Below, one piece after another: positions 5,432 through 58,169 of a stretch of DNA of 64,000 nucleotides. The notes under the pieces are model-generated. The model was not told the origin of the DNA. It did no database searches and was given only the letters and a program-made list of their open reading frames with translations. This stretch comes from a bacterium. Lineage in GTDB: Bacteria > Verrucomicrobiota > Verrucomicrobiia > Limisphaerales > UBA11358. Every line of letters begins with the position of its first letter. The first letter of the stretch is position 1. Both the position numbers and the translations under genes were made by a program. The DNA lies in the NCBI GenBank assembly GCA_021813325.1, contig JAKALA010000005.1, positions 62,001 to 126,000 of the forward strand, written 5' to 3'.

Positions 5432-6232
5432 ATGTCGTTGCCCGCAGATTTGCACATGCACACCCCGCTTTGCCGCCATGCCGCGGGCGAACCGGTGGAA
5501 TACGCCCGCCACGCGTTGTCCGTTGGCTTGACGGAAATTGGCTTCTCCGATCATTCGCCCATGCCGCGGGACGACTTTGATGACTGGCGCATGTTGGATC
5601 GTCAATTGGATGAATACGTGGCCAAAGTTCAAGTTGCCCAGAAGGAATTCCCTCAACTTGCCATTCGCCTGGCGCTGGAAGTGGATTATTTGCCCGGCCA
5701 CGAGGATTGGATTCGTCAGCTCGCTCAACGACATCCGTGGGATTATTTCATCGGCAGCGTTCATTACGTCTCCGACTCCTGGGACATCGATAATCCCGCC
5801 AAGCTTTCAGAGTGGAAAAAGCGAGATCCGTTTGAAGTGTGGTCCGCCTACTTTGACCGATTAACGATGGCGGCGGAATCCGGTTTGTATGAAATCATCG
5901 GGCACAGCGATCTGCCCAAGAAATTCGGGATTCGTCCGGCCCAGGATTGCACCCCGCTCTACGAGAAATTTCTTGACGCCGCGGCGCGCTCTGGTTGCGC
6001 CATGGAATTGAACACCGCCGGGTTGCGCAAAGATTGCCGCGAAATATATCCCTGCCGCGAAATGGTTCGCCTGGCGTTCCAAAAAGGTGTCCCCATTACC
6101 TTTGGCTCGGACGCGCATGTCCCCGGGGAAGTCGGCATGAATTTCACTGACGCGGTGGAGTTGGCGCGTTCGGAAGGTTATACCGAGACGTGCCGGTTTA
6201 AACAGCGGCAACGGGAAGCTGCCTGGTTATAA
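5432..6232 (+). CDS. Histidinol-phosphatase HisJ-like PHP-domain protein
   Basis: DLHMHTPLCRHAAGEPVEYARHAL, GFSDHSPMP, GSDAHVPGEVG PHP motifs. Confidence 0.85.
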   Translation: MSLPADLHMHTPLCRHAAGEPVEYARHALSVGLTEIGFSDHSPMPRDDFDDWRMLDRQLDEYVAKVQVAQKEFPQLAIRLALEVDYLPGHEDWIRQLAQRHPWDYFIGSVHYVSDSWDIDNPAKLSEWKKRDPFEVWSAYFDRLTMAAESGLYEIIGHSDLPKKFGIRPAQDCTPLYEKFLDAAARSGCAMELNTAGLRKDCREIYPCREMVRLAFQKGVPITFGSDAHVPGEVGMNFTDAVELARSEGYTETCRFKQRQREAAWL

Positions 6233-44650: not shown

Positions 44651-45478
44651 TCAGTTCGCCAGATTGATTTTCGCGCCACGCTTGGCAGCGAACGGTTCGC
44701 CGATGGGCGGAACAATCTTTGGTTTAATGGTGGCAGCTTCAACGGCGGGCAATAGTTTGGCGGCAATCTGGTCGTATTGATTGAACAGGATGCCCAGCCA
44801 GTCCTGCAATACGCCCCGCGCCATGATGTCCAAGCCAAGACTGTCGTTGCCGAGGGCTTCGTTGAATGGGATGCCGCGCTGCTGGTCGGCCTCCAATTTT
44901 GCCAGCCGGAGTTTCACGAATTCCGACAACACCGGGATGGTGACGGTGACTGCGCCGCAATCGAGCAATTCCTTTTCCAGCGGGCTGTTGTCGAACATCC
45001 GCGTTTTCGCCGCGCGGGCCGGGTTGCGGACGATGACATAATCCACCTGTCTGCCGCAGAATTGGCAGACGGCAGCGAGGTTGGTCATCACGTCCAGATC
45101 ATCGAATGGAAACAGCATGAGCGTGATGCCGATGTTTTGCGCGCTGGCGATGTCAAAGAAATGCGTGGCGGCAAGCGCCTTCATCAGTTGCGCGTCCAAA
45201 TGTGCCCGTGGGTCAATCAGCGTGACAGGTTGGGCGGTGGCCTTTCGCAGAATCAAAATGAGTTCGTCCAAGTCCCCGGTTTGTCCGCTCAAAGGCACGA
45301 GGTTGACCTGGTCGGGGAACAATCGGGACAGCGTGCGATTATCGCCGTCAAGATCAAATCCCTGCCACGGGATGCCACGTTGATTAAGCCAGCACGCGCG
45401 GGCGGCGGCTTCGATGCTTTTGCCCAAGTTTCCTTTGGCCTGCATGGGCAGAATCAGGCGATGTTTGTTTGTTTTCAT
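44651..45478 (-). CDS. ParA/TraL-like P-loop ATPase
   Basis: MKTNKHRLILPMQAKGNLGKSIEAAARACWLNQRGIPWQGFDLDGDNRTLSRLFPD: deviant Walker A KGNLGKS. Confidence 0.75.
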   Translation of the reverse strand: MKTNKHRLILPMQAKGNLGKSIEAAARACWLNQRGIPWQGFDLDGDNRTLSRLFPDQVNLVPLSGQTGDLDELILILRKATAQPVTLIDPRAHLDAQLMKALAATHFFDIASAQNIGITLMLFPFDDLDVMTNLAAVCQFCGRQVDYVIVRNPARAAKTRMFDNSPLEKELLDCGAVTVTIPVLSEFVKLRLAKLEADQQRGIPFNEALGNDSLGLDIMARGVLQDWLGILFNQYDQIAAKLLPAVEAATIKPKIVPPIGEPFAAKRGAKINLAN

Positions 45479-45807
45479 ATATCTGTATTGAACTTGTATT
45501 TGTTTGTTGCTGTTGTCTGCGCCGGCATTGGCACCGATGCAGATGGATTCGCCGTGGCCAGCTGTGTCGTTGCCGCTTCGCTTTCCCAATGGGAGCGCGC
45601 CTGACGTTTCAGGTAGCGCCGGTAGAACTGGTGCAATCCCTGAAACGTGATGACGCAATCCTTTTCGGTGCGAAGCCGGGCGGCGATTTCCTGCCACGTC
45701 CGGCGCTGCTGGCGTTGCTCGCGGATAAATTCCACGAACGCTTCCAGGCGGCTGCGATAAGCGCGTCCGCCGCCACGCCGGTTGTTATTTTTGCTTTCCG
45801 AATCCAT
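45475..45807 (-). CDS. Small basic DNA-binding protein, TraK-like candidate
   Basis: Arg-rich N-term; RRTWQEIAARLRTEKDCVITFQGLHQFYRRYLKR; ATGA overlap with the P-loop gene. Confidence 0.5.
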   Translation of the reverse strand: MDSESKNNNRRGGGRAYRSRLEAFVEFIREQRQQRRTWQEIAARLRTEKDCVITFQGLHQFYRRYLKRQARSHWESEAATTQLATANPSASVPMPAQTTATNKYKFNTDI

Positions 45808-45841: not shown

Positions 45842-45864
45842 GTTAGCGAGTAGTGGGCGGGTTA
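45842..45864 (-). promoter_or_regulatory. 21-bp motif copy 1 (upstream of TraK-like operon)
   Basis: gttagcgagtagtgggcgggtta; near-identical to copies at 47322 and 57966. Confidence 0.7.
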
Positions 45865-45900: not shown

Positions 45901-45906
45901 TTACCC

Positions 45907-45988
45907 GTTGAAAGGCGTTGAATCGCCGGGTTGAAACCGGTTGAACGGTGTTGAACCGTGGCGTTGAAATATGTTGAAGGGCGTTGAA
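45907..45988 (+). repeat. Eight GTTGAA direct repeats, spacing 10-13-10-10-13-10-10 bp
   Basis: GTTGAA at 45907, 45917, 45930, 45940, 45950, 45963, 45973, 45983. Confidence 0.9.
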
Positions 45989-46042
45989 TTCATCAACGCA
46001 GTTCAATGCTTTTCAACATGGCCGAAGGCGCATAGCCAAGAA

Positions 46043-46060: not shown

Positions 46061-46420
46061 GGTAGGGCGTCCCCCTTCCAAGCATCCCATCAGGATGCCA
46101 GCGCATTGATTAAAAACCGTGCGATTAGCGTTGAATCGGAATGTTGTAAATGGATTACACCATGATGAATTTCAGTCGTATGCAACTGAACCGGATGGTT
46201 TTTGAATCACGTTTGGAAGGATTGAACCGGCCTACGTTTCAAACCAATGGTGATTTCTTAACGGAAATTGGTGGTGAAAATTCAACTGGAAAAATGGCGT
46301 CAATCTCCGTCAGCACTGAATGGGCGATTGGGAAATCGGAGCGGAATGAACGGATTGTGGAATGGAGCGCGGTTTCCCAATCGGCCATTGAGTGCGCCAC
46401 CGGATAGGTTTGAATCCTGC

Positions 46421-46477
46421 GGCGTTTAGTCTGTCCGGTTTCCGAGAGCCGCAGGAAAGCCGGACAGTCTAAACGCC
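46421..46477. repeat. Long inverted repeat (approx. 23-bp arms, 10-nt loop)
   Basis: GGCGTTTAGTCTGTCCGGTTTCC / GGAAAGCCGGACAGTCTAAACGCC, nearly perfect complements. Confidence 0.9.
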
Positions 46478-47321: not shown

Positions 47322-47342
47322 AACCCGCCCACTACCCGCTAA
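47322..47342 (+). promoter_or_regulatory. 21-bp motif copy 2 (upstream of relaxase)
   Basis: aacccgcccactacccgctaa = reverse complement of copy 1 with one mismatch. Confidence 0.7.
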
Positions 47343-47376
47343 TGGGAGCAAGGCCGGTTGCTTTAAGCTGGTGTCC

Positions 47377-48036
47377 ATGCTTGCACCGAAAGCCCAATAC
47401 AACCCGGTTGACGCCAAAAGGTATTTCAAGGAACACCTGGCGGTGGGTGATTACTATGCCGAGGGGCAGACCGTCCCCGGCCAGTGGATCGGCCAGGGCG
47501 CGGCGGATTTGGGACTGTCTGGTGTGACAAGTGCCGATAAGTTTGTCCGACTCTGCGACAATCTGCACCCGCAAACCGGCGAACGGCACACCCTGCGGCA
47601 AAAGACGACCCGGATCGAAAAAGGGATTGATGGCGAAGAACGGCAGGCGGCCAATCGCCGGGTGTTTTACGATTTTACTTTCTCACCGCCGAAGTCGGTT
47701 TCCATCGCCGCGCTGGTTGGCAACGACGCGCGGATTATCGCGGCACATGAGCAGGCTGTAACGCTGGCCATGCACCAGTTGCAAACCTTTGCGGCAACAC
47801 GGGTGCGGAAAAACAATGAATGCACCGACCGGCCTACGGGCAACCTTGTGGCCGCGATGTTCCGCCATGACACCTCCCGCGCGTTAGATCCGCATCTGCA
47901 TACGCATTGCATCGTGTTCAACGCCACGTTTGACGCGGTGGAAAAGCAATGGAAGGCGTTGCAGAACCATGAAATGTTCGCCGCGCAAAAATTTGTCGAG
48001 AATGTTATTACCATGAACTCACGCGCGGACTGGTGA
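47377..48036 (+). pseudogene. MOBF (TrwC/TraI-type) relaxase, N-terminal relaxase part, terminated by apparent frameshift
   Basis: RVFYDFTFSPPKSVSIAAL and DPHLHTHCIVFN (HxHxH); frame breaks at about 48005. Confidence 0.85.
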
Positions 48037-50336
48037 AGTGCGGTTATCAGATTGAAAACCAGCCGCGCGGCGATTTTGAAATCAAGGGCGTCGCGCCGGA
48101 ACTGGTTGAAAAGTTTTCCAAGCGGCACCGGGAGATTGACCGGAAAACCAAGGAACTGCTGGCGCGTGAACCGGAAAAGGCGGGTGACAACATCGCCGCA
48201 ATCCGGGAAAACATCGCGCACAAGGAACGGCCACGGAAGATTCGGGACATCGGTTTGGAAAAACTGCAAACGCTGTGGGATGGTCAAATGACGGCGGGCG
48301 AAAAGGCTTCGCTGGATGGGCTGACGGCGAAGCCATCCGTTGCGCTCGTTGCCAGCGAGAAGGTTTGCGAGCAGGCCGTGACGTGGGCGGAGCAGCATTT
48401 GTTTGAACGCCGTTCCATCGTCCATGAGCATGAACTGTGGCGGCACGCGCTGGAACGCGCCCGGGGGCAGGACATTTCACTGGCCGACATTCAGGCGGTC
48501 ACCCAGCAGCGCGGTTATCTGCATTTTGACGAACATCCCGGCAAGGTGTCCACGCGGGAACATCTCGAACGCGAAATGGAAATTGTCCAGACGGCCAGAG
48601 CGGGCATTGGTGAATGCTATCCGCTGGTCTGGCAGCCAAAACCGTTTAATCCCATGCTGGATGAGGAGCAGCGTGAAGCATTGAACAAACTGGTTTCCAA
48701 TCGCAACCGGGTCGCGGTCTTTCGCGGCGGTGCGGGCACGGGCAAAAGTTTTGTGCTGCGCGAGCTGGTCGGGCAAATCCGCGACGGCGGGCGTGGCGTG
48801 GTCGTCCTCGCGCCGCAACGCCAGCAAGTGCTGGACATGGAGCGGGACGGTTTCCCGTCGCCGCAGACGGTCGCCAGCTTTCTGCAAAAGAAAGAACTCC
48901 AAGCGGGGACGGTGGTGATGGTGGATGAGGCCGGGCAGATTGGCGGCCAGCCGATGCTGGAACTGCTCCGGCTGGCGGCTGAACGCAATGCGCGGCTGGT
49001 TTTGTCGGGAGACACCCGCCAGCATGGAGCGGTCGAGGCGGGGGATGCGCTGCGGGCGATTGAAAAGCATTCCGGCGTCCGGCCAGTGGAATTGACCAAC
49101 ATCCGCCGCCAGAATCCGGCGCTGGCAAAGTCCATCGAGGAGCGCCAGCGGATCAAGGAATACCGGGAGGCGGTCGAGGCAGCGCGGGACGGCAGGTTCA
49201 CCGAATCGTTTGAACGGCTGGACAAGTTGAAAACGATTGAGTCCTGCACCCTGGCCGACAAGCATGAAAAGCTGACGGCGCGTTATCTGGAACTGGTGAA
49301 AGAGCGTCAAACCACCGTGGTCGTCTCGCAAAGCTGGAATGAGATTCACCAGGTCAACGCCGCGATTCGCGCCGCGCTAAAAAATGAAAAGCTCGTCGGC
49401 GATCTGGAAACCACGGTCACGGCTTTTCAGCCGGTGGATTTGACGGATGCGCAAAAGCGCGATGCCCGTTCCTATGATGCCAACACCGTGTTGGTGTTCA
49501 ATCGTGACGTGCGCGGGTTCAAGGCCGGTGAATCGGCGCGGTTGAAATTGATTACGGACACGCATTTGCTGGTGGAAACTGATAAACGCATTGTCCCCAT
49601 TCCATTCAAACAACTGGACAAGCTGACGGCCTGCCAGCGCAAGGAACTGGCTTTGGCCGCCGGCGACAAGCTGCAACTCAAGGCCAATGGCCGCAGCGTG
49701 GAAAACCGCAAGCTGGTCAACGGCGAACTGGTCACGGTCGAGGCCGTTGCGCCGGACGGCCGCATTGCGCTGGCGGATGGCCGGGTCTTGGATAATAACT
49801 TCCGCCAATTCGTCCGGGGCTATGCCATCACGTCCTATGCGTCACAGGGCAAGTCGGTGGAATACGTTCTATTTTCGGATTCAGCGGCGAAGGGTGCGAC
49901 GAACCAACAGCAATGGTATGTCACCATTTCGCGCGGCAAGAAGGGGATTCACATTTTCACCACGGACAAGGAGCAGTTGCGCGAGAACATCACGCGCAGC
50001 GGGGATCGCCCCTCCGTGGTGGATGCGCTGACAGCGCATTACCGGAAACATGATTCGTTCTATCGCCTGATTGAACAGCGTTGGGGGCCACGGGTGGCGC
50101 TCACCATGACCAACAGCAAACGTGCCAGACAGTTCCGGGAGATGCGCCAGAGGCAGAATCAAAGGCAGGCGCAAACTGAAACGGTCAAGCCGACGGTTGA
50201 ATCCCATGAGCCGCGCCAGCAACCCGTCCCGACACCGGTGCAAACCCAAGTGGCTGAAACGGCGGAGCCGAAAATCAAGCCGCACCGGATTTTCCCGGAA
50301 GCCCAGAAAAAGCAGTCGCGCGGTGTTGGCATTTGA
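48033..50336 (+). CDS. MOBF relaxase, C-terminal SF1 (TraI/RecD-like) helicase part, separated by the frameshift
   Basis: VFRGGAGTGKSFVLRELV, VVMVDEAGQIGG, LSGDTRQHGAVEAGDALRAI, GYAITSYASQGKS. Confidence 0.88.
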   Translation: MKCGYQIENQPRGDFEIKGVAPELVEKFSKRHREIDRKTKELLAREPEKAGDNIAAIRENIAHKERPRKIRDIGLEKLQTLWDGQMTAGEKASLDGLTAKPSVALVASEKVCEQAVTWAEQHLFERRSIVHEHELWRHALERARGQDISLADIQAVTQQRGYLHFDEHPGKVSTREHLEREMEIVQTARAGIGECYPLVWQPKPFNPMLDEEQREALNKLVSNRNRVAVFRGGAGTGKSFVLRELVGQIRDGGRGVVVLAPQRQQVLDMERDGFPSPQTVASFLQKKELQAGTVVMVDEAGQIGGQPMLELLRLAAERNARLVLSGDTRQHGAVEAGDALRAIEKHSGVRPVELTNIRRQNPALAKSIEERQRIKEYREAVEAARDGRFTESFERLDKLKTIESCTLADKHEKLTARYLELVKERQTTVVVSQSWNEIHQVNAAIRAALKNEKLVGDLETTVTAFQPVDLTDAQKRDARSYDANTVLVFNRDVRGFKAGESARLKLITDTHLLVETDKRIVPIPFKQLDKLTACQRKELALAAGDKLQLKANGRSVENRKLVNGELVTVEAVAPDGRIALADGRVLDNNFRQFVRGYAITSYASQGKSVEYVLFSDSAAKGATNQQQWYVTISRGKKGIHIFTTDKEQLRENITRSGDRPSVVDALTAHYRKHDSFYRLIEQRWGPRVALTMTNSKRARQFREMRQRQNQRQAQTETVKPTVESHEPRQQPVPTPVQTQVAETAEPKIKPHRIFPEAQKKQSRGVGI

Positions 50337-51516: not shown

Positions 51517-53919
51517 TCAAAAATCTTCGCCATCGTGAATTTCATAGCCTACCGCTTCATAGCCGCGCACCCGTTTTGAATACATTGCGGATAAAACCGG
51601 CACAGCCCCGTCCACATAATCATAAACGACGACTTCCCGTTTGTTGTCGTGCAGGCGGTGGAGACGGCCTACATATTGCTGCAACGTGCCGTGCCAGGAA
51701 ATCGGCATGGCCAGAAAGAGCGTGTCCAGACGCGCATCGTCAAATCCTTCGCCAATGTATCGGCCGGTCGCCAGCAGAACCCGCTCTTCGCCGGTGGGAA
51801 TTGCCGCCAACTGTTCGGCAATGGCACGGCGTTGTTTTGCCCCCATACCGCCTTTCAGGATGATGACATGCTTGACCAGCCCCGCAAGTCGTCCGGCAAA
51901 TTCGTCAATGTGGCTGGTGCGCTCAGTCAAAAGAATGGGCGAGCGCCCGGCCTTGACCGCGCGAACAAGGTCAACCGTGATCAAATCGTTGCGGGATTTG
52001 TCCGTCGCCAACGCCGCGTAAAGAACGTGCATTTCCGGCCTTTCGGGTGAGGACGGAAACCGGAAATTTGTCGGGCGTGGAACAACGATATGTTTGAACG
52101 GTCGCGCCTGCGCCTGTTCCTTTGCATTCACACGGTAACGAATCGGCCCGCATTGCATGACGATGATCGGATGATGTCCGTCCTTGCGCTGTGGCGTCGC
52201 GGTCAGGCCGGTGACGTAAGGTGCCTTCACCTGCCGCAACACTTGCTCAAAACTCACTGCCGACAAATGATGGCACTCGTCCACGATGACATGGCCATAG
52301 TTGGCAACCACGTCATCCACGACTTGTTTACGGTTCAGGCTTTGAATGACGGCAACATCAATGATTCCCGTGGCACGCTTCCGTCCGCCACCGATTTGCC
52401 CGATGCTTTTGATTGGCACGTTCAAAAATGTGGCCAGCCGTTCGCGCCACTGGTCTAAAAGTTGACGGCGATGAACCAGAACCAGCGTGTTGACATTCCT
52501 CGCGGCAATCAGCCAGGCAGCCACGACGGTTTTGCCAAAAGCAGTTGTCGCGCATAGGATGCCATCATCAAAACCGAGCATGGCATCGGCGGCGGTTTGT
52601 TGTTCTGGCCGAAGCTGGCCGTGAAATGTCACGCCAATCGGCTGACCGGCAAATCGCTGTTCGTCCAGATCAACCGCAATGCCATGTGACTTGAAAAGCG
52701 ATACAACTTCATCCAAGCAACCGCGCGGCAAGGCAATTTGCCGGGGAAATTCCTCGGCGCACCGAATGATGCGCGGCTTGCCAAACGTGGAAAGCCGCAT
52801 CGCCTGCGCGCGATAAAATTCCGGGTTTTGAAAGGCCGCCAGACGGTGCAGCCGGTTCAACATCGCCGATGGCAAGCCCTCCTTTTCAACATAGACGAGG
52901 TTGCTGCGGACAATTCGCACTTTTTCAGGCAGCGGGCCGACGATGGATTTGTCCTTTTTCTTCCGCGAAGGTGGCAGCGTCCACGGGTCTTCAGCCGCAT
53001 CTTCATCAGTCACGCTGCACCGGACACCGATAATCTCGCCGCTGTGTTCGGCGTCGCGCACAATGTTTTCCACTTCTGCCAGCGTCATTCGCCGAACGCC
53101 CGACAGAAATGCCCATTGATCTGTGTGTGGATTGAAATTGGAATCGAGAAAAACGCTGTTGCCGTGGCTGCGCGGCAGGTGTTGTAACGGCAGCGCAATG
53201 AGATTGCCAAAGCCGCCTTTCGGCATCGTGTCCTGACTCGGAAACAAACGGTCGTAGGAGTCAAGGCCGAGTTGATGTCGGCGTTCCATTGTCCGGGTGA
53301 GAATGGCCGCGCCCAATTTTCGCGCGAGACTGGCGGGCAACGGCATATCAAAGAAAATCCAGACGTGCCCGCCGCGTCCAGAGCGCGACCGTTCGAGAGT
53401 GGCGGAAATTTTCCAGTCAGCGCAGGTCTGAAGAACCGCGCGCACGTCATCCTGCCAGGTTGCCTTGTCGAAATCGGCGGCCAGAAACCAGCACGTTTCA
53501 TCTGTCAGCAGCGGATAAACCCCGGCCGTAATTTTACCGGTGAGATGGTCGTGAATGACTTGATCCGTCAGTGGAAAGTATTCCTTTGGCTCATCGGGTC
53601 TTTTCTGGAATGGACTGCTCCAAACTTTTCGACAAGCCGGAGAATAGCCGGTTTTCCCGTTTCGCCCATCCCACCGCACCGCATAAACATCCTCGCGTCC
53701 GCAAAACAGGCTGCGGAATAATTTTACTTTCTCCGCCGGGTTGGATTTGGAGCTGGTCGGCGCAATGGTAAAAGAAACCGCCGGCAAAATTGGCGGAACG
53801 ATATTTTCATTGCTGGGCAATCCCAAACGTTTCCGCAAATCGCGATTCTCCTCACGTAACCGTTCGCACTCCGCCAAGGCATCCGCAAGCCTGGCATTGG
53901 TCGTGGAGGATTCGTTCAT
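51517..53919 (-). CDS. TOTE-type archaeo-eukaryotic primase domain fused to SF2 DEAD/DEAH helicase
   Basis: LFCGREDVYAVRWDGRNGKTGYSPAC..YFPLTDQVIHDHLTGKITAGVYPLLTDETCWFLAADFDKATWQDD..LERSRSGRGGHVWIFF; helicase VIVDECHHLSAVSFEQVL, TATPQRKDGHHP. Confidence 0.85.
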   Translation of the reverse strand: MNESSTTNARLADALAECERLREENRDLRKRLGLPSNENIVPPILPAVSFTIAPTSSKSNPAEKVKLFRSLFCGREDVYAVRWDGRNGKTGYSPACRKVWSSPFQKRPDEPKEYFPLTDQVIHDHLTGKITAGVYPLLTDETCWFLAADFDKATWQDDVRAVLQTCADWKISATLERSRSGRGGHVWIFFDMPLPASLARKLGAAILTRTMERRHQLGLDSYDRLFPSQDTMPKGGFGNLIALPLQHLPRSHGNSVFLDSNFNPHTDQWAFLSGVRRMTLAEVENIVRDAEHSGEIIGVRCSVTDEDAAEDPWTLPPSRKKKDKSIVGPLPEKVRIVRSNLVYVEKEGLPSAMLNRLHRLAAFQNPEFYRAQAMRLSTFGKPRIIRCAEEFPRQIALPRGCLDEVVSLFKSHGIAVDLDEQRFAGQPIGVTFHGQLRPEQQTAADAMLGFDDGILCATTAFGKTVVAAWLIAARNVNTLVLVHRRQLLDQWRERLATFLNVPIKSIGQIGGGRKRATGIIDVAVIQSLNRKQVVDDVVANYGHVIVDECHHLSAVSFEQVLRQVKAPYVTGLTATPQRKDGHHPIIVMQCGPIRYRVNAKEQAQARPFKHIVVPRPTNFRFPSSPERPEMHVLYAALATDKSRNDLITVDLVRAVKAGRSPILLTERTSHIDEFAGRLAGLVKHVIILKGGMGAKQRRAIAEQLAAIPTGEERVLLATGRYIGEGFDDARLDTLFLAMPISWHGTLQQYVGRLHRLHDNKREVVVYDYVDGAVPVLSAMYSKRVRGYEAVGYEIHDGEDF

Positions 53920-53938
53920 ATTGATGTTGCGGTCGGCA

Positions 53939-54796
53939 TTACCGCCGCAACGCGCCGTAGAACTGCTGAACAGAATTGAAATGCGGATTGATGTCGGCAT
54001 CAATGCCGCATTCCTGCGCCAATTCCGCAAAGGGTGCTGACCACGAAGCCGGTGGCACGGCTAACTCGGTTGGAATTTCATGCGTCTTTCGCCGGTGAAA
54101 CGTATCACGAATCGTTTTTGGCAAACGGGCGATGTCCAGCTTTCCCTTTTCAATCAAAAGAACCAAGTCCACCAAATCTTTCACGCGGGAGTTCGGTCTG
54201 CCCACACGCGGCAAGGTGTAGGCGTGCAATTTTTCTGCGAATTGTTCCTCCTGCGAAATCGCCGGAACGCGAACGTGAGGCAGACCGGCAAAACCGAGCC
54301 AATCCCGGCCTTCCAGCATTTCGTAAGGTTCGCGCAGCACATCGCCAGCACTCACATCCAAGTGGAATTGAGCGAAGCGCCGTCCAGCCATTTGCGCGTC
54401 CACTGGAAAGCGCGCGCCGCCGTAAGGCGCGGCATCAAGGTCTAGCACCGGGCTGCCAATGGCGAATGTGAAACCATCATCCAGATTGACGGCGGCGGCC
54501 TGGCGCAACAAGCCGGTTATGGCTTTGGCATCCCATTCCGCTGGAATGGTGGGCGATTGCCGGAGTGCCAGATCAATATCCCGCGTGGTGCGCGCGGCCC
54601 GGATGCGGAGTTCCATCGCATAACCGCCCTTCAACAACCACGGCGATGTTTTACCTTGAAAAAGCCGGCACAGCAGCCGGTCAAAAGCGGCCTGCCGTCG
54701 GTATCGCTGAAGATCGCCGCCTTCTTTGGCGGCCAAGGCCAGCAGCCTGTCTTCAAGGGCGTGGCGGAGCGCTGCCGGAGTTTTGTAATGATTCAT
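53939..54796 (-). CDS. AbiEii-type nucleotidyltransferase toxin
   Basis: WLLKGGYAMELRIRAARTTRDIDLAL and ISQEEQFAEKLHAYTLPRVGRPNSRVKDLVDLVLL. Confidence 0.9.
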   Translation of the reverse strand: MNHYKTPAALRHALEDRLLALAAKEGGDLQRYRRQAAFDRLLCRLFQGKTSPWLLKGGYAMELRIRAARTTRDIDLALRQSPTIPAEWDAKAITGLLRQAAAVNLDDGFTFAIGSPVLDLDAAPYGGARFPVDAQMAGRRFAQFHLDVSAGDVLREPYEMLEGRDWLGFAGLPHVRVPAISQEEQFAEKLHAYTLPRVGRPNSRVKDLVDLVLLIEKGKLDIARLPKTIRDTFHRRKTHEIPTELAVPPASWSAPFAELAQECGIDADINPHFNSVQQFYGALRR

Positions 54797-55398
54797 TGGA
54801 ATAGTTTCTTGGCAATGTCCGCAAATTTCGGATTGGATTTTGCCGCCTTGATTTCACTTTCAAGAATCAGTCCCCGGCGGCTGGCATCTTTGGCTGCACG
54901 CCGGCATTCCGCCAGTGTAACGGGATTCTTGTGAACCACGTCACACAATGCGCGAGCTGGACGACAAATTTGCATCCCTCGCAAGACAGTGATTTCGGAG
55001 GGTGCGAGCGAGTCCCGATGAAGCGCCACCGCCTTCGGCGACGGGCTGTTTCGCCGAAATGCCACCGGCACGGTGATATGAACTTTCACCGGATTGAAAT
55101 CGCCAAGCTCAAAATAACTCAAGGCTGTCTCGTGCGAAAGGACTCCCAGCGGTTGGTCATTGCGTCCGCGTGTCCAGAGCAGAAACGCCGGCGTCAGTCC
55201 GTCCTCCGGTGGCGACAGATGTGCCAGGCGGTAAATGCCTCGTTGAATCCGCTCCCAGTTACCAACGCGAACATGGTAAGGATGTGTGTTGTCCGCGTAA
55301 CCAGCTTCGATAGCCTGCTTCGTGGTGAAATAACCCTGCTGCTCCTGCGCAACTTGTGTCAGCGCCTTGAAAGGGGCATTCTGCTGTCGTTTCGGCAT
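54793..55398 (-). CDS. AbiEi-type antitoxin
   Basis: GYFTTKQAIEAGYADNTHPYHVRVGNWERIQRGIYRLA..VLSHETALSYFELGD..RPARALCDV; ATGA overlap with AbiEii. Confidence 0.9.
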   Translation of the reverse strand: MPKRQQNAPFKALTQVAQEQQGYFTTKQAIEAGYADNTHPYHVRVGNWERIQRGIYRLAHLSPPEDGLTPAFLLWTRGRNDQPLGVLSHETALSYFELGDFNPVKVHITVPVAFRRNSPSPKAVALHRDSLAPSEITVLRGMQICRPARALCDVVHKNPVTLAECRRAAKDASRRGLILESEIKAAKSNPKFADIAKKLFQ

Positions 55399-55557
55399 GG
55401 CACGCATCCTCAACTTATTTGAGGATATATGCAAGTCGGAATTTCACCTTGCTGGATGTGCCTGCGTTCTCAAGATACGGCGCGCTATCCCGCGATTGCA
55501 TCTGCCGACGTTTGAAGATTGCCGAACTGGAATAGTCCAACTTAACCTTGGTTGAAA

Positions 55558-56550
55558 ATGATGGCCGACCCGACCAGACAAATGCCGCGCCGGTGGACGG
55601 CGGCGGAAGACCGATTGCTGGGCACAGCTTCGGATGCGCTCGTCGGCAAGAAAATTGGCCGCTCGAAAGGTTCGGTTTACCAACGGCGCAGAGTCCTGGG
55701 AATTCGTTGCGCCCTTCACGTTTGGACACCCGAAGATGACCGCATCTTGGGAACGGCTTCGGATGTGGAGATCGGTCGCCGCCTTGGCCGCACCCCAGCC
55801 TCGGTTTATCACCGGCGCAGAGCTTTGGGAATTACCGGTTTTCGCCCCCGTGTCTGGACGACGGAACAGGACAAATGGCTGGGCACCATTCCCGATTCGG
55901 AAATTGCCAGACGTGTCGGCTGCACCGAGGCTAACATTCGGGCAAGGCGCTTGCGATTGGGCATTGCCGCCACCCGTCACGTCAGACCGTGGACGGCGGC
56001 AGAGGACGCGCTGGTAGGAACCATGCCGGACAAGGAACTGGCGCAAAAATTAGGCCGGTCGGTCATCGCTGTGGCGCATCGCCGCGAACGGAAGGGCATT
56101 CACATTCCGTTTCACCCGAATCAAAAAGCATGGACTGCGGCGGAGGATGCGCTGCTGGGCACCATGATGGATCGGGAACTGGCGCAACGGTTGAACTGTC
56201 ACTACTACGTCGTGGCCTGGCGGCGAAGACAGCGCGGCATACCGCCGTTCAGGGGCAAACTGCGTGTCTGGACTCGTCAGGAGGAAGCCTTGTTGGGAAC
56301 CATGAACGACCGGCAACTGGCCAGGAAACTTCAGCGGACGGTCGTTTCGGTCACGGTGCGCCGCCATCGGAAAGGAATTCCGGTTTTCAAACGCAAAAGC
56401 CACGTCTGGAAACCGGAAGATGACCGGATTCTTGGCACCCGGCCTGACAGCCAGATTGCGCTCCTCCTCGGAATCAGCATATCAGCGGTGCGCCATCGGC
56501 GCAGCCGCTTGCGCATTCTTCGTAGAAAAAAACGCAATCAATCCTCATAA
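55558..56550 (+). CDS. Seven-repeat SANT/Myb-like HTH protein
   Basis: Seven tandem 43-47 aa units WTxxEDxLLGTxxDxELAxxLGRxxxxVxxRRxxxGI. Confidence 0.85.
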   Translation: MMADPTRQMPRRWTAAEDRLLGTASDALVGKKIGRSKGSVYQRRRVLGIRCALHVWTPEDDRILGTASDVEIGRRLGRTPASVYHRRRALGITGFRPRVWTTEQDKWLGTIPDSEIARRVGCTEANIRARRLRLGIAATRHVRPWTAAEDALVGTMPDKELAQKLGRSVIAVAHRRERKGIHIPFHPNQKAWTAAEDALLGTMMDRELAQRLNCHYYVVAWRRRQRGIPPFRGKLRVWTRQEEALLGTMNDRQLARKLQRTVVSVTVRRHRKGIPVFKRKSHVWKPEDDRILGTRPDSQIALLLGISISAVRHRRSRLRILRRKKRNQSS

Positions 56551-56865: not shown

Positions 56866-57930
56866 TTATGCGGCAGCGGCGGTTGCCGCTGGTTCGGGGT
56901 TGCGGTTTCCAATGATGGCCTTCTGCTGCTTCTCGTATTCGCTCAAGGCTGGCATTTCCACCGGGGCGTTGCGCGAATAGGCGCGATGGACGGCCTTGCT
57001 GTTTTGGCCGATGTTCACCTGCGCATACCGTTCGGGATAACCGGCCGTCTTCGCCCGTTCCGCCCAAGCGTAACGGTAGCTGTGCAGCGACACGCCTTTG
57101 ATGCCGAGTCCGGTGCAGCGTTGCTTGAACTCCGTCGCGCGGTCGCCCGCGCGAACTGTCCGCAGATAGGGAAACAGCGGCCCATTGCCCGGCAGGTCGC
57201 GGAGCAATTCCGCCATTTCTTCATCGGGGCGCATGATCGCAACGCTTCCCGTTTTCATGCGCCGGTAGCTGATGACGTTATTATTCCAGTCAACATCCTC
57301 GGCTTGCAGGAACGCCAAGTCCGATTGCGACGCGCCCAAATACCACGCCAGTTTGTAGAACGCCTTGCGTTCGGGATTGTTTTCGCGTTCAACGATGGCC
57401 TGATGTTCGGCCAAAGTGATGGCGCGTTTCTCTTTGTATTCAACGGCGGGCCATTGGCGTTTCGGGACGAGCGGCCAAGGCAGCCAGTTCATGTCCACGC
57501 AAAAGTTATGCAGGCGGCGCAGATAGACATTGGTGGAAACTTTGCCGCATTGGAGGATGCGCAACAGGAGTTCGCCCTGGGTTTCAATGATGACCTTGGG
57601 CAGCAACGGGGCCAGCGCCTTGTCCTTGGCCACGCGCAACCAGCGTTCCTGGTTGGCTCCCTTCTTGGTGCCGGTGAGGGCTTCAATGGCGTTCTGCCAG
57701 GTGCGCGTTTTCATGCCGTCGTCCGAGCCGGCCAGATACGCCTTGGCGATTTGCAGGTTCAGGATGGGCTGGCGAACCGAATTGTTCTTGGCCTCGATGA
57801 TCTGTTGGGCTTCGTCCTCGTTGGTCGTGTGCAGGCTGGTCGGTTTGCCCGTGGTTTTGTCCACGGCATAATACATCCCGCCACGGCTGTTCCGGCGAAT
57901 TAAGCGATAACGTGTTTTCATAATGTTCAC
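56866..57930 (-). CDS. Tyrosine recombinase (integrase) of the element
   Basis: Adjacent to tRNA-Cys; C-term SLHSYRYAWAERAKTAGYPERYAQVNIGQNSKAVHRAYSR (HxxR...Y). Confidence 0.88.
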   Translation of the reverse strand: MNIMKTRYRLIRRNSRGGMYYAVDKTTGKPTSLHTTNEDEAQQIIEAKNNSVRQPILNLQIAKAYLAGSDDGMKTRTWQNAIEALTGTKKGANQERWLRVAKDKALAPLLPKVIIETQGELLLRILQCGKVSTNVYLRRLHNFCVDMNWLPWPLVPKRQWPAVEYKEKRAITLAEHQAIVERENNPERKAFYKLAWYLGASQSDLAFLQAEDVDWNNNVISYRRMKTGSVAIMRPDEEMAELLRDLPGNGPLFPYLRTVRAGDRATEFKQRCTGLGIKGVSLHSYRYAWAERAKTAGYPERYAQVNIGQNSKAVHRAYSRNAPVEMPALSEYEKQQKAIIGNRNPEPAATAAAA

Positions 57931-57965: not shown

Positions 57966-57988
57966 GTTAGCGAGTAGTCGGCGGGTTA
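57966..57988 (-). promoter_or_regulatory. 21-bp motif copy 3 (upstream of integrase)
   Basis: gttagcgagtagtcggcgggtta; one mismatch to copy 1. Confidence 0.7.
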
Positions 57989-58094: not shown

Positions 58095-58169
58095 TGGAGG
58101 CGGAGGTCGGAATCGAACCGACGGATGAGGCTTTTGCAGAGCCCTGCCTTACCACTTGGCTACCCCGCC
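58095..58169 (-). tRNA. tRNA-Cys (anticodon GCA), CCA encoded; integration target
   Basis: GGCGGGGTAGCCAAGTGGTAAGGCAGGGCTCTGCAAAAGCCTCATCCGTCGGTTCGATTCCGACCTCCGCCTCCA. Confidence 0.95.

Follow-up and report, generated by a model that had tools for sequence, protein, structure and literature searches.

The gene at 55558–56550 (+) of the window, by which we mean the whole 64,000-nucleotide stretch of DNA analysed here, encodes a tandem array of seven helix-turn-helix (HTH) units and belongs to a previously unnamed family of array proteins, no description of which was found in the open-access literature searched. New here are the family itself, where its contact residues lie and how their evolution differs by clade, and its repeated insertion into defence loci. 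The reading we favour, to which we give about an even chance, is that the protein is a modular DNA-binding array, probably a local regulator carried with mobile and defence genes; we prefer local regulation on account of the gene's position, within or next to such operons, and of the lack of an enzymatic domain in the protein. The parts of this reading that we infer, namely binding to a long site as a monomer, control of transcription and the target itself, take the following form. Seven three-helix HTH beads joined by short linkers would align consecutively on a long DNA site without palindromic symmetry, much as the three HTHs of Cbp1 do on CRISPR repeats (PMC10883916), the protein probably acting as a monomer; the third helix of each bead would enter the major groove, with its positions 1, 2, 5, 6 and 9 selecting the local bases, and a conserved Arg-Arg pair (unit columns 31–32) would probably anchor the helix to DNA. 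Located in or beside mobile or defence operons, the array may control these operons or the gene that encodes it, and changes at the contact residues could re-tune which site it prefers.

A periodic protein of seven units

The open reading frame and its translation give 330 amino acids from the ATG at 55558, with an in-frame TTG at 55552 as a possible alternative start, and nearly all of the protein consists of seven units of 43–47 aa. The unit HMM places these, all on the forward strand, at 55594–55704 (unit 1, predicted contact residues K, G, Y, Q, R), 55723–55833 (unit 2: P, A, Y, H, R), 55855–55965 (unit 3: E, A, R, A, L), 55990–56100 (unit 4: V, I, A, H, E), 56131–56241 (unit 5: Y, Y, A, W, R), 56269–56379 (unit 6: V, V, T, V, H) and 56407–56517 (unit 7: I, S, R, H, S). 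The first codon of each unit encodes Trp, exactly where the first-pass annotation had put the conserved Trp codons (spacing 43, 44, 45, 47, 46 and 46 aa), and the helix segments that it cited for all seven units are likewise correct. Mean pairwise identity among the seven units over 37 columns is 0.459 (46%), whereas 2000 within-unit shuffles average 0.078 and never exceed 0.109, so that the periodicity far exceeds chance. The identity is unevenly spread: among these units, it is 10.5% at the five predicted contact columns vs. 51.5% at the remaining columns.

The codon-position GC bias of the gene is weaker than that of the neighbouring genes and still fits an Arg-rich coding sequence. Conservation at the protein level is seen in two same-genus genomes (42–43% identity over ~310 aa) and in a relative from another family that is 64% identical across units 3–7; the window's own genome holds a single array gene. 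A Pfam scan of the protein returned generic HTH matches only, with no enzymatic domain and no nuclease match.

Predicted fold and class assignment

AlphaFold2 applied to the single sequence of the whole protein gave 21 helices, three per unit, in agreement with the seven trihelical units anticipated by the first-pass annotation; at a pLDDT of 69 and a pTM of 0.22, this model leaves the relative positions of the beads undefined. Units 4–5, modelled from 32 aligned stretches of two units, gave three helices per unit at a pLDDT of 90.5, with helix 3 spanning unit columns 25–35, and helix 3 begins at column 25 in all modelled units. A chain of consecutive three-helix units is one mark of a tandem trihelical HTH array, and the predicted protein has this form. 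The fold search returned no match at E ≤ 0.001, and the best matches were all DNA-binding HTH chains: Reb1-Ter for the whole protein (a weak match, E = 0.06) and, for the two-unit model, the CRISPR repeat-binding protein 2lvs as the best PDB match (also weak, E = 0.14), followed by the DNA-binding domains of the Mos1 and Tc3 transposases.

The 'SANT/Myb' label given in the first-pass annotation holds as a resemblance and fails as a class assignment, as Myb_DNA-binding (PF00249) reaches 15.6 bits against a gathering cut-off of 24.4, and only one of the conserved Trp residues of Myb is retained. Across 374 family units, the Trp at the unit start alone is conserved, and the multiple conserved Trp residues per unit of Myb/SANT domains are absent. 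Like the eukaryotic multi-repeat Myb proteins c-Myb and Reb1, the arrays are chains of three-helix units, each with a leading conserved Trp; unlike these, they have one conserved Trp per unit, far more units, and contact residues that are nearly all different between units.

Several other assignments were rejected. HTH_AsnC scores above its cut-off, yet the matches are of HTH type only and the RAM domain of AsnC/Lrp regulators is absent; the similarity to sigma-70 factors, which combine regions 2 and 4, is limited to a marginal region-4-like match (26.7 bits, cut-off 25.7). The units, with three helices, 43–47 aa and 46% identity, are not those of a TALE array, which are near-identical two-helix repeats of ~34 aa, and the protein is not a GIY-YIG or HNH homing endonuclease, having no nuclease match.

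Variable residues map to the predicted recognition helix

The unit HMM, applied to the fetched loci, yielded 374 well-aligned units and 62 distinct arrays of at least three units. Column entropy across the 374 units is highest at columns 30, 26 and 33, with columns 29 and 25 within the top eight. These five columns (25, 26, 29, 30 and 33) correspond to positions 1, 2, 5, 6 and 9 of helix 3, which are the usual DNA-contact positions of an HTH recognition helix, and 340 distinct five-residue signatures occur at them among the 374 units. The variable residues thus map to what is, by analogy with other HTHs, the DNA-facing side of the predicted recognition helix; variable positions away from that helix, which the first-pass annotation had named as contrary to its proposal, are not what the models show. 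Its picture of a beads-on-a-string DNA reader describes the right kind of object, with trihelical units and variable residues at the canonical contact positions.

Orthologous arrays are collinear unit by unit: in two 11-unit arrays from different genera, identity is 0.68 between corresponding units and 0.38 off the diagonal, which indicates that the arrays are old and not recent tandem expansions. TALE and C2H2 zinc-finger proteins are likewise built of modular beads that combine a conserved frame with variable contact residues. They differ in fold and, unlike the array units with their ~46% identity, have near-identical repeats; no code is established for the arrays. If the beads read DNA in register, the arrays would be a bacterial HTH counterpart of TALE and zinc-finger arrays.

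Phage and viral relatives of the family carry nuclease domains

Of the 293 genomes sampled from the order (Limisphaerales-type Verrucomicrobiota), 45 encode relatives of the window protein at E ≤ 10−3, often several per genome. At E ≤ 10−12, matches are found in 35 of the 293 genomes of the order and in none of the 194 other sampled genomes of the phylum (Fisher's exact test, p ~ 10−8). By the unit HMM, arrays comprise 3–12 units, and the commonest period is 46 aa. The arrays of L060/L086, L068/L096 and L030 share an N-terminal region of ~180 aa with the motif GPY-PP...IPWP...HHWGVSRxTVxNWRxAL, part of which is HTH_23-like.

More distant relatives include repeat proteins encoded on Pseudomonas megaplasmids (pQBR103 and the PA83 plasmid), to which the same HMM assigns 4–8 units at ~27–32% identity; these differ from the family in being divergent, in their annotation solely as hypothetical, and in having no defence genes named beside them. 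In the Vibrio phages 1.170.O and eugene 12A10, GIY-YIG nucleases are fused to HTH units matched by the unit HMM, as is an HNH-like domain in an IMG/VR viral contig (fusions, GIY-YIG or HNH-like, on phage and viral contigs: L139, 1213–1931; L142, 1213–2253; L051, 5010–5777). These phage homing endonucleases share 3–4 HTH units under the same HMM with the arrays; the nuclease domain is theirs and is absent from the window protein, and none was found in the other family arrays scanned. The fusions offer the strongest independent clue to DNA as the target of the repeats, and through these relatives DNA binding by the array protein appears well supported, if indirectly.

Arrays recur at mobile and defence loci

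Arrays are found with related MobF or integrase genes (L079, L090, L103, L089), within or adjoining type I-G CRISPR operons (L094, L096, L108, L110, L026), immediately ahead of cas12b of type V-B systems (L023, L112), ahead of a type IIG restriction-modification gene (L091), and adjoining HsdR (type I restriction) and RepB genes (L025, L029). Several are translationally coupled to defence or mobile operons. About half of the arrays examined adjoin ordinary or unrecognised genes, and these locus proportions are approximate, as genes were called with a simple script and neighbours were annotated selectively. Since most of the genomes are metagenome-assembled, single contexts may be misassembled, and the weight rests on recurrence across independent genomes. 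For the local-regulator reading, the neighbours are a difficulty in two respects: they vary from locus to locus, so that there is no single regulated partner, and the arrays beside ordinary genes make up about half of the sample.

Of 43 arrays, eight are situated at CRISPR loci of type I-G or V-B or at remnants of such loci, a cas5/6 remnant at L022 included; even at an assumed rate of 2%, this adjacency has p ~ 2 × 10−6 and far exceeds any plausible rate. Such adjacency, together with the top rank of 2lvs when the two-unit model is compared with PDB folds, raises the possibility that the arrays act like Cbp1, which places three HTHs in order along an asymmetric site on CRISPR repeats (PMC10883916). 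On that account, an array would lie along CRISPR repeats or leaders and shape array transcription or spacer uptake, and copies away from CRISPR loci would be trans-acting or re-targeted. Cbp1 and Cbp2, from Sulfolobales and relatives, resemble the arrays in having tandem HTH domains (three or two, via domain duplication), and some Verrucomicrobiota arrays stand in CRISPR operons; the arrays differ from them in having 3–12 instead of 2–3 units, in being bacterial, in their many locus types and in their highly diverse contacts. We consider a Cbp1-like role quite unlikely, given that the fold match is weak and comes with no profile match among PDB sequences, that most arrays, the window's among them, lie away from CRISPR loci, and that type I-G repeats are nearly constant, whereas the arrays adjoining them come from different clades. 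CRISPR repeat binding as a general function is further weakened by the ~40 type I-G loci that we fetched, most of which have no array. One such locus lies in the window's own genome (contig C32, 2734–4344; L174).

The CRISPR loci also show how an array is placed. In the array-free locus L173, ~12 nt separate cas5/6 from cas4/1; in L094, this junction is occupied by a 1.4-kb array gene that overlaps cas4/1 by 4 bp. An orphan second cas5/6 3' end (5980–6137), resembling that of L108, lies behind the intact cas5/6 of L094 and immediately before its array gene, and cas5/6 3' fragments likewise stand directly ahead of the arrays in L110 (2737–3063) and L022 (9861–10304). From these orphan fragments, the array seems to have moved with a piece of a former neighbour and thus appears, as far as gene order can tell, to have travelled with part of a CRISPR operon; for the L022 fragment, locus decay is an alternative. 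The remnants bear on the mobility of the array, not on its mechanism. Direct repeats of 20–172 bp within 500 bp flank the arrays of L026, L079, L086, L091 and L092, and such repeats are more frequent around arrays (5 of 43) than around control genes (7 of 253; p = 0.019). At these mobile and defence loci, arrays are sporadic insertions.

Sporadic insertion at operon junctions with carried cas5/6 ends, the flanking repeats and the nuclease-fused phage relatives are what would be expected of a largely selfish mobile gene derived from the targeting module of a free-standing homing endonuclease, which would bind its insertion neighbourhood and spread with its flanks, having lost its nuclease or relying on one provided in trans. 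This account is unlikely: the window protein and the other family arrays scanned carry no nuclease, the repeats at their flanks differ in kind, with a hairpin repeat among them, and the contact residues of some clades are strongly conserved over large synonymous distances, which implies that a function is kept.

Selection on contact positions differs between clades

When orthologous change was compared with within-array change for all arrays pooled, the contact residues were not specially conserved, a result explained by splitting the arrays into clades. The clade nearest to the window comprises L035, L038, L061, L062, L064, L065, L072 and L118 and spans several families. When its 37 unit columns are ranked by non-synonymous change, the contacts take places 1, 2, 3, 4 and 7 (permutation p = 5 × 10−6, a value that is not fully independent, as the columns were chosen by entropy first and matched to the helix register afterwards). 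The maximum-likelihood ω in this clade is 1.08 for contacts vs. 0.17 for the frame; holding the contacts at the frame ω costs 16 lnL units, whereas holding them at 1 costs 0.7. An ω of ~1.08 is indistinguishable from 1, so that positive selection proper at the contacts is not supported, and pairwise values above 1 at these positions are suggestive only.

In other clades the contacts are constrained. The type I-G CRISPR clade has an ω of 0.20 at contacts vs. 0.093 in the frame; in the L088 clade, the values are 0.109 and 0.106, and setting the contact ω to 1 costs 22 lnL units. Between L094 and L073, there is one non-synonymous difference in 79 sites. The strict conservation of contact positions in some clades indicates that these positions matter. 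Their being held in some lineages and freely changing in others fits switching of specificity, as judged from substitution patterns, with relaxed constraint in the fast clade as a possible alternative. One clade resembles PRDM9 in that its changes gather at the contact positions; in contrast to PRDM9, TALE and zinc-finger proteins, the array units are collinear and old, and ω is not significantly above 1.

The first-pass annotation had also proposed invading DNA as a target, and fast-changing contact residues in one clade, along with defence-gene neighbours, would be compatible with direct defence, in which the array binds a fixed invader sequence and blocks its replication or expression. We regard this as very unlikely, as the protein has no effector domain, the contacts are frozen in other clades, and no partner gene is common to all loci. 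The arrays could also form a bacterial system of re-targetable readers, each bead recognising a short subsite through a partly regular code of five residues; arrays of 3–12 beads would be exchanged as controllers among mobile defence loci, CRISPR-Cas and restriction included, with the contacts rewritten whenever the target changes. This proposal is tentative and on balance improbable. Should the beads read DNA in register, the 340 sampled contact signatures would make a recognition code measurable, and the arrays would represent a hitherto overlooked accessory gene that inserts into loci for CRISPR-Cas, restriction and abortive infection.

Candidate target DNA and the surrounding element

If the array is a local regulator, as we favour, a candidate operator is the divergent promoter region at 55435–55551, between the open reading frames of the array gene and of the AbiEi antitoxin/regulator (54793–55434, −; Pfam AbiEi_4, E = 7 × 10−9). 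Against this reading, no operator has been identified: motifs repeated elsewhere in the same locus are found in 10 of 39 array promoters and in 77 of 284 other promoters, i.e., without excess. In a search for a conserved footprint upstream of orthologous arrays, most hits fell in coding sequence, in remnants of cas5/6 or in interspersed repeats.

The window element offers other sites. The 21-nt sequence AACCCGCCsACTACyCGCTAA occurs at 45843–45863 (+), 47322–47342 (−) and 57967–57987 (+), 28–36 bp ahead of the start codons of three element operons and in constant orientation relative to the gene; of the 293 genomes sampled from the order, 47 contain it, controls yielding few matches, and it also stands ahead of a relaxase in L036/L103. 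It is a candidate operator, promoter or recombinase site of the element family. At 45905–46020 lie eight direct GTTGAA iterons with 10–13 bp spacing, followed by inverted copies, and strong inverted repeats stand near these at 46313–46395 and ~46432–46474; by their arrangement, the iterons and inverted repeats are a candidate oriV or oriT.

Given these sites near 45.9 kb and at three promoters, the occurrence of arrays in several related MobF/integrase elements, and the RepB/ParB-like genes beside the array of L029, the array might serve element housekeeping by binding att, oriT, iteron or partition DNA of the element. The first-pass annotation had named both an att/oriT array and the element's own DNA as targets, and neither proposal gained support. 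The 21-nt site is present in same-genus genomes without any array, which also rules it out as the array's operator; the iterons at 45.9–46.0 kb are near-identical copies, a poor match for seven readers that all differ; and many arrays lie off recognisable elements. A housekeeping role is therefore rather improbable.

The surrounding genes include that of the AbiEii toxin (53939–54796, −; Pfam AbiEii, E = 10−30) and a tyrosine integrase (56866–57930, −; Pfam Phage_integrase, E = 2 × 10−4, slightly under the cut-off) with relatives at L079, L089 and L090. The integrase adjoins a tRNA-Cys gene (58095–58169); a duplicated tRNA end, as expected of a tRNA-Cys-based att duplication, was looked for and not found. 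The MobF (TrwC) relaxase-helicase (47371–50336, +; Pfam TrwC in both open reading frames) is split into two frames of 221 and 767 aa that overlap by 4 bp, through a frameshift, a sequencing error or recoding; an undivided MobF relative of 955 aa adjoins an array in L036/L103. The first gene of one operon behind a 21-nt site encodes a 110-aa protein (45475–45807) with a marginal MADF (Myb/SANT-like) match. Between the AbiEii gene and a DUF6155 gene, an AEP-TOTE conflict-system protein (51517–54030, −; Pfam AEP-TOTE, E = 2 × 10−91, and ResIII) combines primase and helicase in one fused chain, and a relative with 28% identity is encoded near another array, at L024.
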